Below, one piece after another: positions 2,101 to 9,675 of a DNA stretch of 64,000 nucleotides (positions are counted from its first letter, which is position 1; the number at the start of each line of letters is the position of its first letter). Under the pieces are notes generated by a model, which worked only from the letters and a program-made list of their open reading frames with translations, was not told the DNA's origin and ran no database searches. The translations under genes and the position numbers were made by a program. This DNA comes from Corynebacterium callunae DSM 20147 (lineage in GTDB: Bacteria; Actinomycetota; Actinomycetes; Mycobacteriales; Mycobacteriaceae): positions 124,001 through 188,000 of the forward strand of contig NC_020506.1 in NCBI RefSeq assembly GCF_000344785.1, read 5' to 3'.

Positions 2101-2552
2101 TTAGTGGTGGGAAAGATCCAGTGGCTGCCTACCAACAACACCCTTGCGGCGTGGCACCAAGCTCACTGCAATCATGCCGACAATTGCAGGCAAAGACCAG
2201 ACTGCAAAGTTAATGAAGGTGGAGTAACCAGCGGCGACCAAAACGCCACCAAGGGAAATTGCAAGCACTGCGCCGATACGGCCAATTCCCAAGGTAAGTC
2301 CTAGAGCAGATGCACGGGTTTCATTGTCGTAGTAGGTGGCAACAAAGCCGTTAAGCAGGATCTGTGCACCGATGGAACCGAAACCAACAACAGCAACCAA
2401 GGCGTACATACCAATGAGTGGAACCACGCCGGTGGACATAATCAGCAATGCTAGTCCGGAGGAAGCAAAGGAGAAGAAGGTGATGATGCGTGGGCCAAAA
2501 CGGTCTGCCAGGTAAGAGGTAATCACAACACCAACTACAGCGCCGATGTTAA
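2101..2552 (-). pseudogene. AAHS-type MFS transporter, C-terminal part (interrupted)
   Basis: C-terminal third of a major facilitator protein of the aromatic acid:H+ symporter group, with four predicted membrane segments. The 5' part of the same gene is at 9672-10583. Joining the two across the transposon and removing one TTAA gives a continuous reading LLTVNIGAVVGVVITSYLAD, so the gene was whole before the insertion. The first in-frame ATG on this side (2526) is only an internal Met. Confidence 0.9.
2549..2552. repeat. TTAA target-site duplication, left copy
   Basis: TTAA directly precedes the CCTCGA end of the left IS1380 copy. The matching TTAA is at 9672-9675, immediately outside the right end of the second copy. 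IS1380-family elements are known to duplicate about 4 bp. Confidence 0.9.
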
Positions 2553-2724
2553 CCTCGATGTTTCATGGGGCTGGTGAGCGGGGTGGGTCGGCGTCGTTGC
2601 CGGTGTTGAGCTGCTGATTCTGGCATTCGGGTATGACAGATCGTCGCAGTGTCCGTTGCGGGCGGTCGGGTTCCACTCCCGAGAAGAGGAGCTGCTGGTC
2701 GTAGGGGCGGGTGGTCTCGCCGGG

Positions 2725-4137
2725 TTAGGTCTGTGCGACGGTGGTGCGGAGCCGGTTGACGCCGGTCAGGACCCTCACGGCTTCGGGTGCATGTTCGGCG
2801 AGGTGGAGGACCTTGTGCCGGGCGCGGCGCACGAGGGTCGCGGGGATCTCGAACAACCGCGCGCGGAGCCGTTTGGGTTCCCATTTCCTCGCGTCGTGCC
2901 TGGTGAAGGCGATGGTTTGCATCCAGGCGACGAGCTCGGAGGCGAGTTGGATGATCTGGCACCAGATCTGGTTCTGCGCGAAGCCCTGCAGCGGGAACTT
3001 CTCAAGGCCCATGTCCTTGGCGTTACGGATCCGGTCTTCGCAGCGTGCACGGCGACGGTGCCGCAGTTCCAGGACGGGAAGCTGGCCGCGCGGGGAGTTG
3101 GTGGCGAACGCGGTGATGCGCATCCCCTCGTGATCGGTGATCCGCAGCTGCGCCCCAGGATGAGGACGTTCCTTCCGCACGATCACCCGCATCCCGGGCG
3201 GCCAACCCTGAAGATCCAGCAGCTCGGTCAGCTCCGCCACCCATGTCCCCTCGCGGATCCCCTCGTCCTCGCTGTCGTAGGCGGGGGTCCACGCCTTTGC
3301 CTCGTCGATACGTTCCAGTAGGTCAGGCGTGTTCGCAGGGAGGGTGAACCCGACCGAGTAGGCCAGACGCTGCCGCTGGAGCCAGGCCAGGAAGTCTTTG
3401 GTGCCGCCAGCCCCGTCGGTGCGGATCAAGATCTTCTTCGATCCCCGACCACCCCGAGCCAGCAGGCCCGCAGGCAGCTGGGCCAGAGCGTCACGGGTGA
3501 CGGTGATGTGATCAGCGGCCGTGTTCGAGCCGGCGTTGCCGGGGCGCAGCTGGATCGCCAGTGGTTCCCCGGTCCCGTCGCTGCCGTGGTCAAGGAACGC
3601 ACACAACGGGTGGTATCCGAAGCCGCGTTTGAACGTCGGTGCGGCCTGCTCCTTCTCACTGTGGGCGGTGATCAGGGTGGCGTCGAGGTCGATGACCAGC
3701 GGGCTCTTCACGCTCGCCCCCACAGTCGGGGAATGGTCTCCGGCCAGGGCCCAGGCCTGTTCACGCGCGGCCCGGCGGGCTTTCGAGATCGCCTCGATCA
3801 CGGTGGGCGCGTCCTGGGCGAGGGTGGTGAGCGTGCGGGAGATCGTCGGGGCCGAGGCGACATCACCGAACAGGCCCGGCTCGCAACGCAGCAGATCAGT
3901 ATCCGAAGCATGCTCCCCGCCGATTGCGAGAGTGAGTGCGAGGTCCAGCAGGACCTTCGCCGCGTGGTGCTCGGCCAGCGGCTTCGTCCACGGAGCCAGT
4001 GCTTCCCGCAGCGAAGAGGCGAGGCCGGTGGCGTGGATCGCGTCGGTCAGCAGCACCGCACCAGCATGCGAGACCGCTGGAACCGGGGCGATGTCCACGC
4101 GCGGGCGGGGGTAGAAGAACAAGGTAGGGTGGGACAC
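2725..4137 (-). CDS. IS1380-family transposase, copy 1
   Basis: DDE transposase of 470 residues, the usual IS1380 length. The likely triad is Asp152 (in VIDLDATL), Asp241 (in IRTDGAGG) and Glu367 (in RCEDRIRNAKD), with a beta-strand insertion domain between the second and third acids as in this family. It starts at GTG 4137 with AGGAG 10 nt upstream. The Shine-Dalgarno sequence lies in one arm of an inverted repeat (4140-4152 / 4199-4211), which may block translation of read-through transcripts. No frameshift or missing motif is visible, so it should be active. Confidence 0.92.
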   Translation of the reverse strand: MSHPTLFFYPRPRVDIAPVPAVSHAGAVLLTDAIHATGLASSLREALAPWTKPLAEHHAAKVLLDLALTLAIGGEHASDTDLLRCEPGLFGDVASAPTISRTLTTLAQDAPTVIEAISKARRAAREQAWALAGDHSPTVGASVKSPLVIDLDATLITAHSEKEQAAPTFKRGFGYHPLCAFLDHGSDGTGEPLAIQLRPGNAGSNTAADHITVTRDALAQLPAGLLARGGRGSKKILIRTDGAGGTKDFLAWLQRQRLAYSVGFTLPANTPDLLERIDEAKAWTPAYDSEDEGIREGTWVAELTELLDLQGWPPGMRVIVRKERPHPGAQLRITDHEGMRITAFATNSPRGQLPVLELRHRRRARCEDRIRNAKDMGLEKFPLQGFAQNQIWCQIIQLASELVAWMQTIAFTRHDARKWEPKRLRARLFEIPATLVRRARHKVLHLAEHAPEAVRVLTGVNRLRTTVAQT

Positions 4138-4139
4138 CT

Positions 4140-4211
4140 GAAAGGTGCTCCTTCCAGTGGATGGCTACGAGCTTCAACACCCCGTATCATCCCAGGCCAG
4201 GAGCACCTTTC
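4140..4211 (-). promoter_or_regulatory. Shine-Dalgarno-sequestering inverted repeat in the IS1380 leader, copy 1
   Basis: 13-bp perfect arms at 4140-4152 and 4199-4211 (GAAAGGTGCTCCT and its complement), 46-nt loop. The downstream arm on the mRNA contains the AGGAG of the transposase. A TGATAC sequence in the loop could be a -10 box, in which case the native transcript would begin inside the loop and lack the upstream arm. Function is inferred by analogy with IS10 and IS50. Confidence 0.55.
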
Positions 4212-4258
4212 TCTATGCCTCCCACCCATCGAGACCATACCGCTATGAAAACTCGAGG

Positions 4259-4548
4259 CTGAGCCGCGACATCGTCTCCCAACGATGTCTGCGCGGCGGC
4301 GATCTCGTTGGTCGGATCCTCGGCGGCGAGGGCGGCGTTGAACCGGGCCTTTTGCTTGACGGTGAGGTGCTCGTAGCCGGTGAGCAGCAGTTGCCGGCTG
4401 GCCCAGACTTTGTCGGTGGCGGTGCCGCGGCGGCCGTGCAGTTGCCGGGTGATCCGTTGACGGACCTGGGTGACCATGAGGTTGGCGAGGGCGACGAGAT
4501 GCCACTTGTCGACTGCGATCCGCGCGTCCGGCAGGGCGGTGCGGATCC
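4259..4548 (-). pseudogene. ISL3-family transposase fragment
   Basis: The minus strand encodes an internal stretch of an ISL3 transposase: IRTALPDARIAVDKWHLVAL carries the family DKWH motif, followed by NLMVTQVRQRITRQLHGRRG and an AAEDPTNEIAAA stretch. Similarity stops about 30 bp before the left IS1380 copy and at an abrupt junction with an IS3 fragment near 4548. Both the N-terminal DNA-binding part and the C-terminus are missing, so it is inactive. Confidence 0.75.
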
Positions 4549-4674
4549 CGGATCGACAGGTACAACAGCGCCCGCCCGCACACCCGCCTCGGCAACGCCC
4601 CACCCGCCGAGTACGAGGCAGCGCACTGCGCTGAGCCCACCAAGTCATCGCGACCGGCAATGACACCTGCATAG
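4549..4674 (+). pseudogene. IS3-family transposase OrfB C-terminal scrap
   Basis: The plus-strand frame reads RIDRYNSARPHTRLGN then PPAEYEAAH and ends at TAG 4672-4674. The YNSARPHxxLGxxPPAEY pattern is the hallmark of the C-terminus of IS3-family OrfB integrases. Only about 40 residues remain, and the fragment is fused directly to the ISL3 remnant of opposite strand. Confidence 0.75.
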
Positions 4675-4724
4675 ACGTGGCATCAACGCGTAGATGTTTC
4701 AGTTTCTTCTGTGCTGGGGCTGTG

Positions 4725-5816
4725 TCAGGTGCTGGACCGGGTGTAGGCAGCGGCGCGCACCACATCTTCGTCCTCCAGTCCAGCTCCTAGTGCTCCGCCC
4801 ACGGTGGCCAGGCTGGCGGTGAGCCAGCTGATCTTCGCGTAGTCCAAAGCGTTCACTGGGTGACCGGCGACACCGGCCAGTACCTGCTCGTCGATAAGCA
4901 GCAGCGCGCCGACCCAGGACAGGATGAATAAGACGAGGTAGAACACCACAACCCCGATGGCCACGGTCGCGGTGGTGGCCAAATTGAACAGGATCACCTG
5001 CTCACGTTGGGCTCGCCGCCGTGGGCGCTCCCACAAGTCGGCTCCCAGGATCAGGGTGGCACTCACCGCCCCGATCGCCGTCACCGCCAGCAGGACCAGG
5101 CGCACCGGCCCGTAGGCCATGGCCAGTACCCATAGGTCCGAGGCCACCAATGTCAGCACGCCGGTGGCCGCTGCCACGACCAGCGCCCGGGAGAGCCGGG
5201 CCACGAAGGCCCAAGGCTGGTTGGCGCGGATCATGCCCAGCAGCAACCGAACGTTGCCGCTCAGCACTCGGGCCGTGAACTGCACGACGTTGTCATCCGG
5301 GCGTTCGTCGAGATCGGTGGACAGCTGGTGGGCTCTTCGAGCAAGATCCCGCTGGGCGTTGAGGTCTTCGGCGTCGTAGCCCAGGAGCTGCCCGACCACG
5401 TACACGGTGGTCTCTTGCACCTTCTGCCGCACGTGCACGGCTCCCAGGGCTGGGACGGAGACCAGTCCCACCCCGTGCACGGGGCTGAGCTGGGTGAGCA
5501 CCGGACGTCGGCCGGTCTTCAGGGGGATCTCGGTGAGCACCACGGCCAAATCCCAGTTCTCCTCCAGCACGCGGTTTCGGGCCGCCTCCAGCAGGTCCAA
5601 GGTCTCGGTGGGCGGATCGACCAGCCGGTCTTCGGCCATCTTCAGTTGCCAGCGCACTCCCGGATACCGCTGCACCAAAATCTCGCGCACCGAGGTGGTG
5701 ACCTCGGGGCCGAGCGCCGCACTCAGGGATGGTGAGACCACCAGGCCGATGAGCAGCTCGGCATCGGAAAGGGGTTCGGCAGGATCGGCAGTGGATCGGC
5801 AACGCTCAGCAGTCAT
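4725..5816 (-). CDS. transposon-borne membrane protein of unknown function
   Basis: 363 residues from ATG 5816. A longer open frame runs to 6515 but crosses the IS30 left end, so the extension is not real. The N-terminal half (about 1-185) is soluble and acidic and includes LSDAELLIGLVVSPSLSAAL and a LTEIPLKTGRRPVL segment. The second half has about four hydrophobic helices (near residues 205-275 and 290-335). Proteins of this look recur on actinobacterial chromosomes and plasmids without a demonstrated function; some are labelled methylene-tetrahydrofolate dehydrogenase without visible support. Codon use is strongly GC3-rich, matching the transposon and not the host. It is the only non-transposase gene carried. 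Confidence 0.7.
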   Translation of the reverse strand: MTAERCRSTADPAEPLSDAELLIGLVVSPSLSAALGPEVTTSVREILVQRYPGVRWQLKMAEDRLVDPPTETLDLLEAARNRVLEENWDLAVVLTEIPLKTGRRPVLTQLSPVHGVGLVSVPALGAVHVRQKVQETTVYVVGQLLGYDAEDLNAQRDLARRAHQLSTDLDERPDDNVVQFTARVLSGNVRLLLGMIRANQPWAFVARLSRALVVAAATGVLTLVASDLWVLAMAYGPVRLVLLAVTAIGAVSATLILGADLWERPRRRAQREQVILFNLATTATVAIGVVVFYLVLFILSWVGALLLIDEQVLAGVAGHPVNALDYAKISWLTASLATVGGALGAGLEDEDVVRAAAYTRSST

Positions 5817-6150
5817 CGCTCTATTATGAGGCAACCACGGGCCGGATTGCCACTGGCTCGATGGAGCCCCCAAGGTTTCGTGCAGCACCGCAGGCCGGAT
5901 TCGGTGGTCGCCTCGATCCCGGAAAGAGCGGTGCTGCTCACTGCGAAATCCTCTCCCCGCCGACGCCGCCAGCGCGAAGACATCACAGCCAGCGGGCCCG
6001 GGACCTGCCGGTGTCGAGGACGGCTTCTCGATGATGCTGCAGTGACGGATCGGTTGAAGTGCTTCGGCGGTGTGGGAGCAGTGATCAGCGTGGGGCCGGT
6101 CGATTCCGTTCGGACAGGTGATGCATCGACTGCCCAGCGGCAGGTGCGGC
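5817..6150. other. gap between the membrane protein gene and IS30
   Basis: 334 bp of GC-rich DNA with no convincing gene. An open plus-strand frame crosses it (from 5826) but has no ribosome binding site and no family resemblance. It must hold the promoter of the minus-strand membrane protein gene, which I cannot place. Confidence 0.5.
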
Positions 6151-7641
6151 GGATTCAACTGGTCGTCGCAACACCTCGACTTCGGAGGTGTTCGAGCATG
6201 GCCACGGGAGACTGGAGCAAGAAGACGAGCGACGCGCCAGTGGAGCTTCGTCGTCAGTGGCGTGCTGACCGGGCGCTGAGACCGCCGATGCGCTCGCCCG
6301 GACGCCCTGCCCCGTCCCGGGCGGTGCAACGGCAGTTCTGGCGCCTGATCGCCACGGGCATCACGTCGGCAGAAGCGGCGCTCGCGGTCGGCGTGTCCGT
6401 GCCAGTCGGGTCCCGCTGGTATCGCCACGCTGGCGGGATGTCGCCTATCTCGCTGGCTGAGCCCACCGGCCGATACCTGAGCTTCGAAGAACGCGAGGAG
6501 ATCGCCATCCTGCACGCTCAGGACAAGGGCGTTCGAGAGATTGCCCGCGAGATCGGGCGTGACCCCGGAACCGTCTCACGCGAGCTGCGCCGCAACGCTG
6601 CGACCCGTGGCGGGAAGCTGGAATACCGGGCCACGGTTGCCCAGTGGAAGGCGCAACAGTCGGCCAAGCGGCCCAAGGCCGCGAAGCTGCTCGAGAACAC
6701 GCAGCTGCGCCAGTACGTTCACGACCGGCTCGCCGGCAACGTTCGCCGACCCGACGGCACGATCGTCACTGGCCCCACCCCGGCCCCGTGGAAAGGGCTG
6801 AACAAGCCGCACCGTGCCGACCGGCGGTGGGCGCTGGCCTGGAGCCCGGAGCAGATCGCACAGCGCTTGAAGATCGACTTTCCCGATGATGAGTCCATGC
6901 GCATCAGCCACGAGGCGATCTACCAGTCGCTGTTCATCGAGGGTCGCGGCGCGCTCAAGCGCGAACTGGTCACGTGCCTGCGCACCGGTCGCGCGCTACG
7001 CAGGCCCAGGGCCCGGTCGCGGAACAAGCCCGGTGGGCATGTCACGGCCGATGTGGTCTTCAGCGAACGCCCCGCGGAAGCCGCAGACCGCGCCGTGCCT
7101 GGTCACTGGGAGGGCGACCTGATCATTGGCACTGGCCGGTCGGCGATCGGGACGATCGTCGAGCGCAGCAGCCGCTCAACGATCCTGGTCCACTTGCCCC
7201 GCATGGAGGGCTGGGGAGAGATGCCCTACATGAAGAACGGGCCATCGCTCGGCGGCTACGGCGCTCTCGCGATGAACGCGGCACTCAGTGCGTCGATGGC
7301 CACGCTGCCCGAGCAGCTGCGGAAGACCCTGACCTGGGATCGAGGCAAGGAGCTCTCTGGTCACGCGCAGTTCTCCGTGGAGACTGGCACGAAGGTGTTC
7401 TTCGCCGACCCCCACTCGCCGTGGCAGCGGCCGACGAACGAGAACACCAACGGCCTGCTCCGCCAGTACTTCCCCAAGGGCACGGACCTCTCACGATGGT
7501 CCGCTGAGGACCTCGAGGCCATCGCGCACGCGCTTAACAACCGACCCCGCAAAGTCCTCAAGTGGAAGACCCCTGCCGAGGTGTTCGAAGAACAACTACG
7601 CTCACTCCATCAACCCGGTGTTGCATCGACCGATTGAACCC
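6151..7641 (+). mobile_element. IS30-family insertion sequence
   Basis: 1,491-bp element bounded by 25-bp inverted repeats that agree at 20 of 25 positions (left 6151-6175, starting GGATTCAACTGG; right 7617-7641). The transposase stop codon lies inside the right repeat. I see no clear target duplication. To its right, sequence continues directly into an IS3 transposase end. Confidence 0.85.
6198..7637 (+). CDS. IS30-family transposase
   Basis: 479 residues from ATG 6198, which lies 47 bp inside the left repeat; the open frame upstream to 5826 is outside the element. Features in order: an N-terminal extension, a helix-turn-helix (LSFEEREEIAILHAQ, then IAREIGRDPGTVSRELRRN) and the rve-type DDE core with HWEGDLIIG, LTWDRGKEL and NENTNGLLRQYFPKGTDL supplying Asp, Asp and Glu. 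All catalytic signatures are intact, so it is probably functional. The roughly 60-residue N-terminal extension before the helix-turn-helix is longer than in classical IS30. Confidence 0.9.
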   Translation: MATGDWSKKTSDAPVELRRQWRADRALRPPMRSPGRPAPSRAVQRQFWRLIATGITSAEAALAVGVSVPVGSRWYRHAGGMSPISLAEPTGRYLSFEEREEIAILHAQDKGVREIAREIGRDPGTVSRELRRNAATRGGKLEYRATVAQWKAQQSAKRPKAAKLLENTQLRQYVHDRLAGNVRRPDGTIVTGPTPAPWKGLNKPHRADRRWALAWSPEQIAQRLKIDFPDDESMRISHEAIYQSLFIEGRGALKRELVTCLRTGRALRRPRARSRNKPGGHVTADVVFSERPAEAADRAVPGHWEGDLIIGTGRSAIGTIVERSSRSTILVHLPRMEGWGEMPYMKNGPSLGGYGALAMNAALSASMATLPEQLRKTLTWDRGKELSGHAQFSVETGTKVFFADPHSPWQRPTNENTNGLLRQYFPKGTDLSRWSAEDLEAIAHALNNRPRKVLKWKTPAEVFEEQLRSLHQPGVASTD

Positions 7642-7965
7642 AAGCAATACACTTCAATCACCTACACGAGTCGTCTTGTAGAAGCCGAGATTGAGGAGGC
7701 GTCTGTCGGATCGACTGGCGATTCATATGATAACGCAGCAGCTGAAGCGCTGACGAAGCTTTTCAAGAAGGAGGTGGTGTGGAGAAACGGGCCATGGTCA
7801 GGTCGTGATTCTGTCGAATACGCGGTGATGGAATGGGTTCATTGGTACAACAACTCGCGGATTCATTCCCGATGCAGTGACATGGCCCCGATGGCGTTCG
7901 AGGCGCTGCACTACACTCGGTCCCGCCGGCCTGTTGAGGCTCGCGTACTAGAACCAGCTCTCTAG
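7642..7965 (+). pseudogene. IS3-family transposase OrfB C-terminal fragment
   Basis: The reading frame contains QYTSITYTSRLVEAEIEEA, GSTGDSYDNAAAEAL, WVHWYNNSRIHSRC and ends at TAG 7963-7965. These are the last catalytic part (DDE Glu region) and C-terminus of an IS3-family integrase. The 5' part was removed at the IS30 right end. The stop codon abuts the left end of IS1380 copy 2 exactly. Confidence 0.85.
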
Positions 7966-8137
7966 CCTCGATGTTTCATGGGGCTGGTGAGCGGGGTGGG
8001 TCGGCGTCGTTGCCGGTGTTGAGCTGCTGATTCTGGCATTCGGGTATGACAGATCGTCGCAGTGTCCGTTGCGGGCGGTCGGGTTCCACTCCCGAGAAGA
8101 GGAGCTGCTGGTCGTAGGGGCGGGTGGTCTCGCCGGG

Positions 8138-9550
8138 TTAGGTCTGTGCGACGGTGGTGCGGAGCCGGTTGACGCCGGTCAGGACCCTCACGGCTTCGGG
8201 TGCATGTTCGGCGAGGTGGAGGACCTTGTGCCGGGCGCGGCGCACGAGGGTCGCGGGGATCTCGAACAACCGCGCGCGGAGCCGTTTGGGTTCCCATTTC
8301 CTCGCGTCGTGCCTGGTGAAGGCGATGGTTTGCATCCAGGCGACGAGCTCGGAGGCGAGTTGGATGATCTGGCACCAGATCTGGTTCTGCGCGAAGCCCT
8401 GCAGCGGGAACTTCTCAAGGCCCATGTCCTTGGCGTTACGGATCCGGTCTTCGCAGCGTGCACGGCGACGGTGCCGCAGTTCCAGGACGGGAAGCTGGCC
8501 GCGCGGGGAGTTGGTGGCGAACGCGGTGATGCGCATCCCCTCGTGATCGGTGATCCGCAGCTGCGCCCCAGGATGAGGACGTTCCTTCCGCACGATCACC
8601 CGCATCCCGGGCGGCCAACCCTGAAGATCCAGCAGCTCGGTCAGCTCCGCCACCCATGTCCCCTCGCGGATCCCCTCGTCCTCGCTGTCGTAGGCGGGGG
8701 TCCACGCCTTTGCCTCGTCGATACGTTCCAGTAGGTCAGGCGTGTTCGCAGGGAGGGTGAACCCGACCGAGTAGGCCAGACGCTGCCGCTGGAGCCAGGC
8801 CAGGAAGTCTTTGGTGCCGCCAGCCCCGTCGGTGCGGATCAAGATCTTCTTCGATCCCCGACCACCCCGAGCCAGCAGGCCCGCAGGCAGCTGGGCCAGA
8901 GCGTCACGGGTGACGGTGATGTGATCAGCGGCCGTGTTCGAGCCGGCGTTGCCGGGGCGCAGCTGGATCGCCAGTGGTTCCCCGGTCCCGTCGCTGCCGT
9001 GGTCAAGGAACGCACACAACGGGTGGTATCCGAAGCCGCGTTTGAACGTCGGTGCGGCCTGCTCCTTCTCACTGTGGGCGGTGATCAGGGTGGCGTCGAG
9101 GTCGATGACCAGCGGGCTCTTCACGCTCGCCCCCACAGTCGGGGAATGGTCTCCGGCCAGGGCCCAGGCCTGTTCACGCGCGGCCCGGCGGGCTTTCGAG
9201 ATCGCCTCGATCACGGTGGGCGCGTCCTGGGCGAGGGTGGTGAGCGTGCGGGAGATCGTCGGGGCCGAGGCGACATCACCGAACAGGCCCGGCTCGCAAC
9301 GCAGCAGATCAGTATCCGAAGCATGCTCCCCGCCGATTGCGAGAGTGAGTGCGAGGTCCAGCAGGACCTTCGCCGCGTGGTGCTCGGCCAGCGGCTTCGT
9401 CCACGGAGCCAGTGCTTCCCGCAGCGAAGAGGCGAGGCCGGTGGCGTGGATCGCGTCGGTCAGCAGCACCGCACCAGCATGCGAGACCGCTGGAACCGGG
9501 GCGATGTCCACGCGCGGGCGGGGGTAGAAGAACAAGGTAGGGTGGGACAC
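8138..9550 (-). CDS. IS1380-family transposase, copy 2
   Basis: Identical 470-residue DDE transposase, GTG start at 9550 with the same SD-covering inverted repeat upstream (9553-9565 / 9612-9624). Because both copies are intact, either could move alone or together they could mobilise the cargo. Homologous recombination between them would delete 5,413 bp and leave a single IS in the transporter gene. Confidence 0.92.
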   Translation of the reverse strand: MSHPTLFFYPRPRVDIAPVPAVSHAGAVLLTDAIHATGLASSLREALAPWTKPLAEHHAAKVLLDLALTLAIGGEHASDTDLLRCEPGLFGDVASAPTISRTLTTLAQDAPTVIEAISKARRAAREQAWALAGDHSPTVGASVKSPLVIDLDATLITAHSEKEQAAPTFKRGFGYHPLCAFLDHGSDGTGEPLAIQLRPGNAGSNTAADHITVTRDALAQLPAGLLARGGRGSKKILIRTDGAGGTKDFLAWLQRQRLAYSVGFTLPANTPDLLERIDEAKAWTPAYDSEDEGIREGTWVAELTELLDLQGWPPGMRVIVRKERPHPGAQLRITDHEGMRITAFATNSPRGQLPVLELRHRRRARCEDRIRNAKDMGLEKFPLQGFAQNQIWCQIIQLASELVAWMQTIAFTRHDARKWEPKRLRARLFEIPATLVRRARHKVLHLAEHAPEAVRVLTGVNRLRTTVAQT

Positions 9551-9552
9551 CT

Positions 9553-9624
9553 GAAAGGTGCTCCTTCCAGTGGATGGCTACGAGCTTCAACACCCCGTAT
9601 CATCCCAGGCCAGGAGCACCTTTC
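9553..9624 (-). promoter_or_regulatory. Shine-Dalgarno-sequestering inverted repeat in the IS1380 leader, copy 2
   Basis: Same 13-bp arms as in copy 1 (9553-9565 and 9612-9624). In this copy the upstream flank is the broken transporter gene transcribed in the same direction, so read-through transcripts would be the ones folded shut. Confidence 0.55.
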
Positions 9625-9671
9625 TCTATGCCTCCCACCCATCGAGACCATACCGCTATGAAAACTCGAGG

Positions 9672-9675
9672 TTAA
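9672..9675. repeat. TTAA target-site duplication, right copy
   Basis: Partner of 2549-2552. Keeping one copy restores the transporter reading frame. Confidence 0.9.

Follow-up and report, generated by a model that had tools for sequence, protein, structure and literature searches.

The window, i.e., the whole stretch of DNA analyzed here, comprises 64,000 nt of Corynebacterium callunae DSM 20147 (GCF_000344785.1, NC_020506.1, positions 124,001 to 188,000 of the forward strand) and carries two IS1380-family elements (Table 1), which are also the only two copies retrieved by a genome-wide transposase search. The transposase of copy 1 is a 470 aa protein encoded on the minus strand from a GTG start (2725-4137), and corresponds to DDE_Tnp_1_4 (PF13701, E 6.1e-78, 262.4 bits against a cut-off of 34.7; PF01609, 6.6e-12). 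Members of the IS1380 family have terminal inverted repeats starting with CC and generate a 4-bp target duplication. Both ends of the element begin with CCTCGA, and TTAA is present at 2549-2552 and 9672-9675, flanking the outer ends of the pair; no target duplication was found around either single copy, only the outer ends of the pair carrying TTAA. The pair (2549-9675) is a composite element with a TTAA target duplication. When the composite is excised and one TTAA is kept, a stop-to-stop open frame of 393 codons spans the site and, as judged by eye, the insertion target reads like an MFS transporter gene. By visual inspection, a fragment resembling an ISL3-type transposase lies in the inner flank of copy 1 (4259-4765, minus strand), and an IS30-like transposase lies between the IS1380 copies (5826-7637, plus strand), overlapping a long opposite-strand ORF (4725-6515) that may encode a membrane protein. 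Directly before the CC end of many of the related elements described below, CTAG, TTAG, CTAA or TTAA was seen, with no count being made; these left flanks suggest that a YTAR target preference may exist.

Table 1. Observed and proposed features of the IS1380-family elements in the window.
Feature	Position	Strand	Details
IS1380-family element, copy 1	2553-4258	-	1706 bp; transposase ORF 2725-4137; left end 4258
IS1380-family element, copy 2	7966-9671	-	1706 bp, identical to copy 1; 5413-base offset
5' arm of leader hairpin	4199-4211	-	GAAAGGTGCTCCT on the minus strand; missing from the proposed loop-started mRNA
3' arm of leader hairpin	4140-4152	-	AGGAGCACCTTTC on the minus strand
Transposase Shine-Dalgarno AGGAG	4148-4152	-	In the 3' arm (stem), 10 nt before GTG 4135-4137
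Leader hairpin, copy 2	9553-9624	-	Arms 9553-9565 and 9612-9624; exact duplicate of the copy 1 hairpin
Proposed sense -10 GATGAT	4186-4191	-	TG extension at 4193-4194; proposed from conservation
Proposed transposase mRNA start region	4177-4180	-	T65 4179, G66 4178; hairpin top; proposed from spacing and conservation
Proposed antisense RNA	4137-4258	+	Start codon toward IS left end; predicted transcript
Proposed antisense -10 TAGGGT	4125-4130	+	In the first transposase codons; 9 nt before the RF02469 match; predicted
Proposed antisense -10, copy 2	9538-9543	+	Predicted by the 5413-base offset; RF02469 match 9553-9646, plus strand, 21.8 bits

Just upstream of the transposase gene, the plus strand reads GAAAGGTGCTCCT at 4140-4152 and AGGAGCACCTTTC at 4199-4211. 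Together these form a perfect inverted repeat of 13 bp; the arms, separated by 46 nt, grow to 24 nt (79% complementary) if mismatches are allowed, and the transposase start lies 2 nt past the 3' arm (GTG at 4137-4135, minus strand). The original prediction had described this repeat and its 46-nt loop, an AGGAG in the downstream arm, and a recurrence of the whole structure at 9553-9624. All of these are present as claimed, the 3' arm including the transposase Shine-Dalgarno sequence and the recurrence being an exact match; since the IS copies do not differ anywhere in their 1706 bp, the second hairpin constitutes no independent evidence. The leader as carried by a read-through transcript folds at -46.4 kcal/mol (z -3.9), with 1 of 200 shuffles equally good. 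A perfect 13-bp pair anywhere in 64 kb is by itself only mildly improbable (rough estimate 0.1-0.2), thus it is the position of the repeat and its covariation in relatives, rather than the length of the pair, that exclude a chance origin. The leader inverted repeat is real and not a product of chance.

Related leaders were gathered from transposase searches, which gave 47 genome-contig loci; matches were present in 72 of the class's 296 genomes, and 194 plasmid records had them as well. Among 78 transposase-search loci, 16 provided no leader, as the match or the contig stopped short; 25 of 30 loci matching the Rfam family RF02469 (Ms_IGR-7) were added, the other five duplicating leaders already in the set, for a total of 87 leaders. 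The anchor, GCAC/GCAT or something close to it in the 3' arm, was present in 84 of these (and missing from L030, L036 and L069), which were reduced at 85% identity to 51 representatives, 32 of them obtained via transposase searches and 19 via RF02469. L029 and L079, which were anchored on the wrong GCAC, were retained in the counts, as were poor or short rows (L045, L048, L063, L073 and L080 among them) in the covariation counts of the 51 leaders. The plasmid set comprised 12 of 14 loci, L128 and the Bacillota element L136 (Loigolactobacillus) being without an anchor; as L136 lies outside Actinomycetes, the layout is established for the actinobacterial branch only. The anchor rule for the plasmid set was widened after its sequences had been seen, and the motif rules were set after viewing the leaders, plasmid leaders included, so this set does not count as a blind test; its member L126 has 99% identity to L027, one of the 51 leaders, and each of the remaining eleven shares no more than 83% with any of the 51.

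Over 17 pair positions in the 51 actinobacterial IS1380 leaders, 608 of the 867 arm cells are paired, compared to a mean of 565 (sd 7.2, maximum 583) in 200 permutations of the 3' arms among elements with the register re-optimised; the arm covariation that had been set beforehand as a check is therefore seen, with a significance that these permutations, like the shuffles used elsewhere in this work, overstate because the relatives share ancestry. Given that 19 of the 51 leaders came via RF02469, a structure-aware search that favours a hairpin, the analysis was rerun on the 32 leaders found by transposase only: 382 of 544 cells are paired (mean 354, sd 5.3, maximum 367 in 200 permutations), and two-sided changes occur at 14 of the 17 pair positions. 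The stem is kept with altered bases in, for instance, L043 (GGAATGGTGCC/GGCACCATTCC), L060 (AGTGCCTCTGAC/GTCGGAGGCACT) and L084 (GAAAGTGCCTTCTG/CGGAAGGCACTTTC), and the 12 plasmid elements have a mean stem score of 8.29, versus 6.35 when permuted (maximum 7.92, 500 permutations). RNAalifold on a MAFFT alignment recovered a 5-bp inner stem only and missed the outer stem, since that alignment shifts the 5' arms relative to one another; the arms were consequently aligned on the conserved GCAC, and the outer stem then appears. Element by element, a comparison of the hairpin with 60 shuffles is weak (36, 30, 58 and 29 shuffles as good for L130, L133, L134 and L138, respectively, and 1 to 14 for the other ten elements), for which reason a fixed-register permutation test was used.

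An inverted repeat near the left end of an IS could also act at the DNA level, as a binding site for the transposase or a host factor in which RNA folding is incidental. This is very improbable, since the covariation maintains pairing rather than a fixed sequence, and the arm has no copy at the right end, which led us to reject a transposase end-binding repeat; with up to 2 mismatches allowed, the arm has four matches in the window, all of them leader arms.

Regarding the start of the transposase mRNA, a TGATAC in the loop had been put forward as a -10 element. Of the six bases of this hexamer two agree with TATAAT, A2 and T6 being absent, and it was dropped in favor of the overlapping GATGAT, which is conserved instead. 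The loop retains a TGN-GANNAT motif, with A2 and T6 together in 40 of the 51 leaders and TG in 29; as single columns, A54 is conserved in 41, A57 in 48 and T58 in 42. In the fold of the window element, A57 stays unpaired and the partner of T58 is A78, a base conserved in no more than 29 of the 51 leaders; pairing alone therefore does not explain the conservation of these two bases. The hexamer is followed by a conserved TTG (T in 42, T in 48 and G in 40 of 51), whose G comes after a 7-nt gap. A regular expression for this -10-like motif matched the loop of 32 of the 51 leaders (shuffled mean 5.1, maximum 13) and of 9 of the 12 plasmid elements (mean 1.5, maximum 6). No conserved -35 was found in a scan of 47 of the 51 leaders, and a sigma-70 promoter scan of 4050-4350 found no promoter.

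The -10 scan covered -60 to +30 around the 5' anchor in 47 of the 51 leaders (L048, L063, L073 and L080 were omitted due to their anchor distance). Among the positions with at least four occurrences, GANNNT peaks in the loop, at +14 to +17, with 37 in all; outside the loop, the peaks are TANNNT at -55 (9 leaders), which is the IS end as read, and GANNNT at -4 (10 leaders), which is the GAAAGT of the arm itself. These counts bear on a further explanation, namely a hairpin that is always formed and keeps translation low, the start of the mRNA being close to the IS left end and ahead of the 5' arm: the 47 nt of leader between the IS end and the arm leave room for a non-canonical promoter, but apart from the IS end and the arm no peak comparable to that of the loop is common there. 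A promoter upstream of the 5' arm was accordingly rejected as a candidate, and we consider an always-formed hairpin doubtful.

The IS10 transposase is protected from read-through transcripts; in this kind of protection, known in IS10, IS50 and IS200, a hairpin hides the Shine-Dalgarno sequence in transcripts that enter from outside only. In the window element, a transcript starting at 4178 would carry the 3' arm and lack the 5' arm. The computed mean unpaired probability of the Shine-Dalgarno sequence in 45 of the 51 leaders (L029, L048 and L063 were removed by name, and three were too short downstream) is 0.17 for read-through transcripts and rises to 0.48 if the transcript starts in the loop, and to 0.49 upon shuffling of the 5' arm, the corresponding values for the window element being 0.17, 0.40 and 0.40. 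Loop-started transcripts are the more accessible in 42 of the 45 leaders, and no more open in 3 of them. As judged from these computed values together with the conserved loop motif and the covariation, the fold of the leader in stray transcripts probably conceals the start of translation; the earlier proposal of a loop promoter coupled to read-through hiding is supported in part, and not in its choice of TGATAC.

The same leader resembles, on its opposite strand, the small RNA family RF02469. Ms_IGR-7 reportedly originates from the study of Li et al. on sRNAs of M. smegmatis. It spans from the transposase start to approximately the IS left end, and the window element shares its place, orientation and hairpin; unlike members of the family, however, its match (4140-4233, plus strand, antisense to the leader) scores 21.8 bits, under the gathering cut-off of 45, hence by score it is not a member. 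This match has an E value of 0.62 in 7.5 kb and 0.023 in 281 bases, the minus strand scoring 16.7 bits, and the genome from which the window comes yielded nothing when RF02469 was searched genome-wide at E 0.001. Of the 296 genomes, 43 have the family at this threshold or better, and 16 have it above the cut-off; among the latter, G162 (49.8 bits) and G132 (48.2 bits) have it beside IS1380 transposases about 60% identical to that of the window. The laboratory organism Corynebacterium glutamicum, one of 14 control genomes, matches both RF02469 (below cut-off) and PF13701.

With a transposase profile, a transposase was found at 17 of the 30 RF02469 loci, and in all 17 the RNA is on the opposite strand to it, including L081, where only a fragment is found, further in. 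By pairing of coordinates, 6 of 6 RF02469 matches in G003 are antisense beside PF13701; among the matches listed, so are 11 of 11 in G134, a genome that holds 28 PF13701 matches, and 10 of 11 in G030, where the remaining one adjoins a nested insertion. As the scoring covered no more than 11 RF02469 candidates in each genome, a PF13701 match lacking an RF02469 partner carries no information. No PF13701 match was found in G205 nor in G282, which has five RF02469 copies (116.5 bits); all five G282 contigs stop 39 nt into an ORF, and its VKVSHRFAAASAV is similar to the VKVSHTFSAEAAV found in L087, a locus on a PF13701 gene. By eye, the remaining RF02469 loci are at contig ends, in remnants or beside no readable gene.

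Furthermore, a candidate antisense promoter is placed consistently. In 21 of 29 RF02469 loci (L084, at a contig end, was omitted from the 30), the 5' end of the family lies 5-7 nt after a KANNNT hexamer, as compared to a shuffled mean of 1.9 and a maximum of 8 in 500 shuffles. The hexamer occupies a fixed place in 41 of the 51 leaders (mean 4.5, maximum 11), in 29 of the 32 transposase-found leaders and in 12 of 12 plasmid elements (mean 1.1, maximum 4); in the RF02469 group itself, GANNNT is commoner than TANNNT. Within the first transposase codons it takes the form of a third-position T before an A codon in 29 of the 42 readable ORFs of the 51 leaders, a third-position T being found elsewhere at 7.5% over 15151 later codons. 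These observations make it probable that the opposite strand of the leader encodes an antisense RNA. Hence, the original reading of the hairpin was largely right but incomplete, as it missed this probable RNA, which is Ms_IGR-7-like in place and fold and provides a second, equally good reason for the conservation of the repeat.

Covariation looks alike whether the hairpin serves in the sense or the antisense RNA, and cannot separate Shine-Dalgarno hiding from antisense folding. Cells that wobble in the antisense RNA only (47 leaders) outnumber those that do so in the sense RNA only, 56 to 28 (98 and 74 when permuted), for which reason the stem may be retained mainly for the antisense RNA. An account in which the repeat is kept solely as a stable Ms_IGR-7-type hairpin, Shine-Dalgarno hiding being a by-product, would draw on this excess, on the strong conservation of the antisense -10-like site and on the expressed sRNA reported in print; we nonetheless regard it as unlikely, given that the arm includes the Shine-Dalgarno sequence, which becomes exposed upon shuffling the 5' arm in silico, and that both functions predict identical covariation. 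Since covariation is the same for either hairpin and the wobble leans towards the antisense RNA, we propose the two functions together.

According to this proposal, to which we assign a probability of roughly 0.6, the leader in this IS1380 subfamily restrains translation of the transposase by means of a brake made up of two RNAs. The transposase mRNA would start at a weak promoter of the extended -10 type within the loop, as motif conservation and folding suggest, and would carry the 3' arm with its Shine-Dalgarno sequence and not the 5' arm, which would leave it translatable. A transcript arriving from outside, having both arms, would fold and hide the Shine-Dalgarno sequence, the pairing being shown by covariation and the effect computed as accessibility. 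A promoter in the first transposase codons would direct an antisense RNA toward the IS left end, and this RNA would fold into the complementary hairpin, with a loop complementary to the 5' end of the mRNA; it may thereby block translation, presumably more strongly at higher copy number.

Besides RF02469, two known systems provide the closest likenesses. As in the RNA-IN/RNA-OUT pair of IS10, the putative antisense RNA is on the opposite strand and its first part is complementary to the translation start of the transposase mRNA, and by analogy multicopy inhibition would be expected for the IS1380 leader; unlike IS10, IS1380 is a different IS family, and the likeness here is in sequence layout alone. 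IS200 has another class of transposase than IS1380, and its structure is not known to be coupled to a hairpin-loop promoter, as that of the IS1380 leader would be. In both, antisense RNA and mRNA secondary structure would restrain transposase expression together; the antisense RNA acting on IS200 tnpA is art200 (PMC4963395). The layout thus resembles the IS10/IS200 kind of control, for which IS1380 would be a new case. In a single literature library, no published account of IS1380 control by a leader hairpin or an antisense RNA was found, nor did a direct search of it yield a paper on a small RNA upstream of a transposase in M. smegmatis. Transposase-adjacent sRNAs of M. smegmatis have already been published, PMC4109619 reporting that Li et al. 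found sRNAs in this organism; what is presented here is the place of the family against IS1380 transposases. The name Ms_IGR-7 occurred in only two papers of the literature searched: PMC11129820 gives two Ms_IGR-7 genes with RNA-seq counts, and PMC4974804 gives ribosome-protected reads on MS_IGR-7, in both cases in M. smegmatis. Hfq takes part in the RNA-IN/RNA-OUT control of IS10/Tn10 (PMC5006887), and one section of PMC4109619 is devoted to the missing Hfq homologue in mycobacteria.

If the proposed brake is true, IS10-style RNA control would extend to the IS1380 family in Actinomycetes, with a brake on transposition like that of transposon Tn10; an Rfam family described only as 'Actinobacteria sRNA' would acquire a function; and an antisense system would operate in bacteria with no known Hfq homologue. 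More speculatively, and with small odds of being correct in full, one repeat could supply a complete brake across actinobacterial IS1380 elements, comprising the loop promoter, the fold that hides the Shine-Dalgarno sequence and an Hfq-free Ms_IGR-7-type RNA acting in trans between copies, with orphan leaders persisting as sRNA genes that restrain incoming active copies. RF02469-type leaders beside transposase genes that by eye are decayed or unreadable were seen at L080, L082, L083, L085, L089, L100, L103 and L105, and it is possible that leaders in this position are orphan antisense RNA genes. In L055 (G031:C12), the stretch from the IS end to the leader hairpin contains another long inverted repeat (GCCAATTCCGGCAC / GTGCCGGAATTGGC), which might stop incoming transcription.
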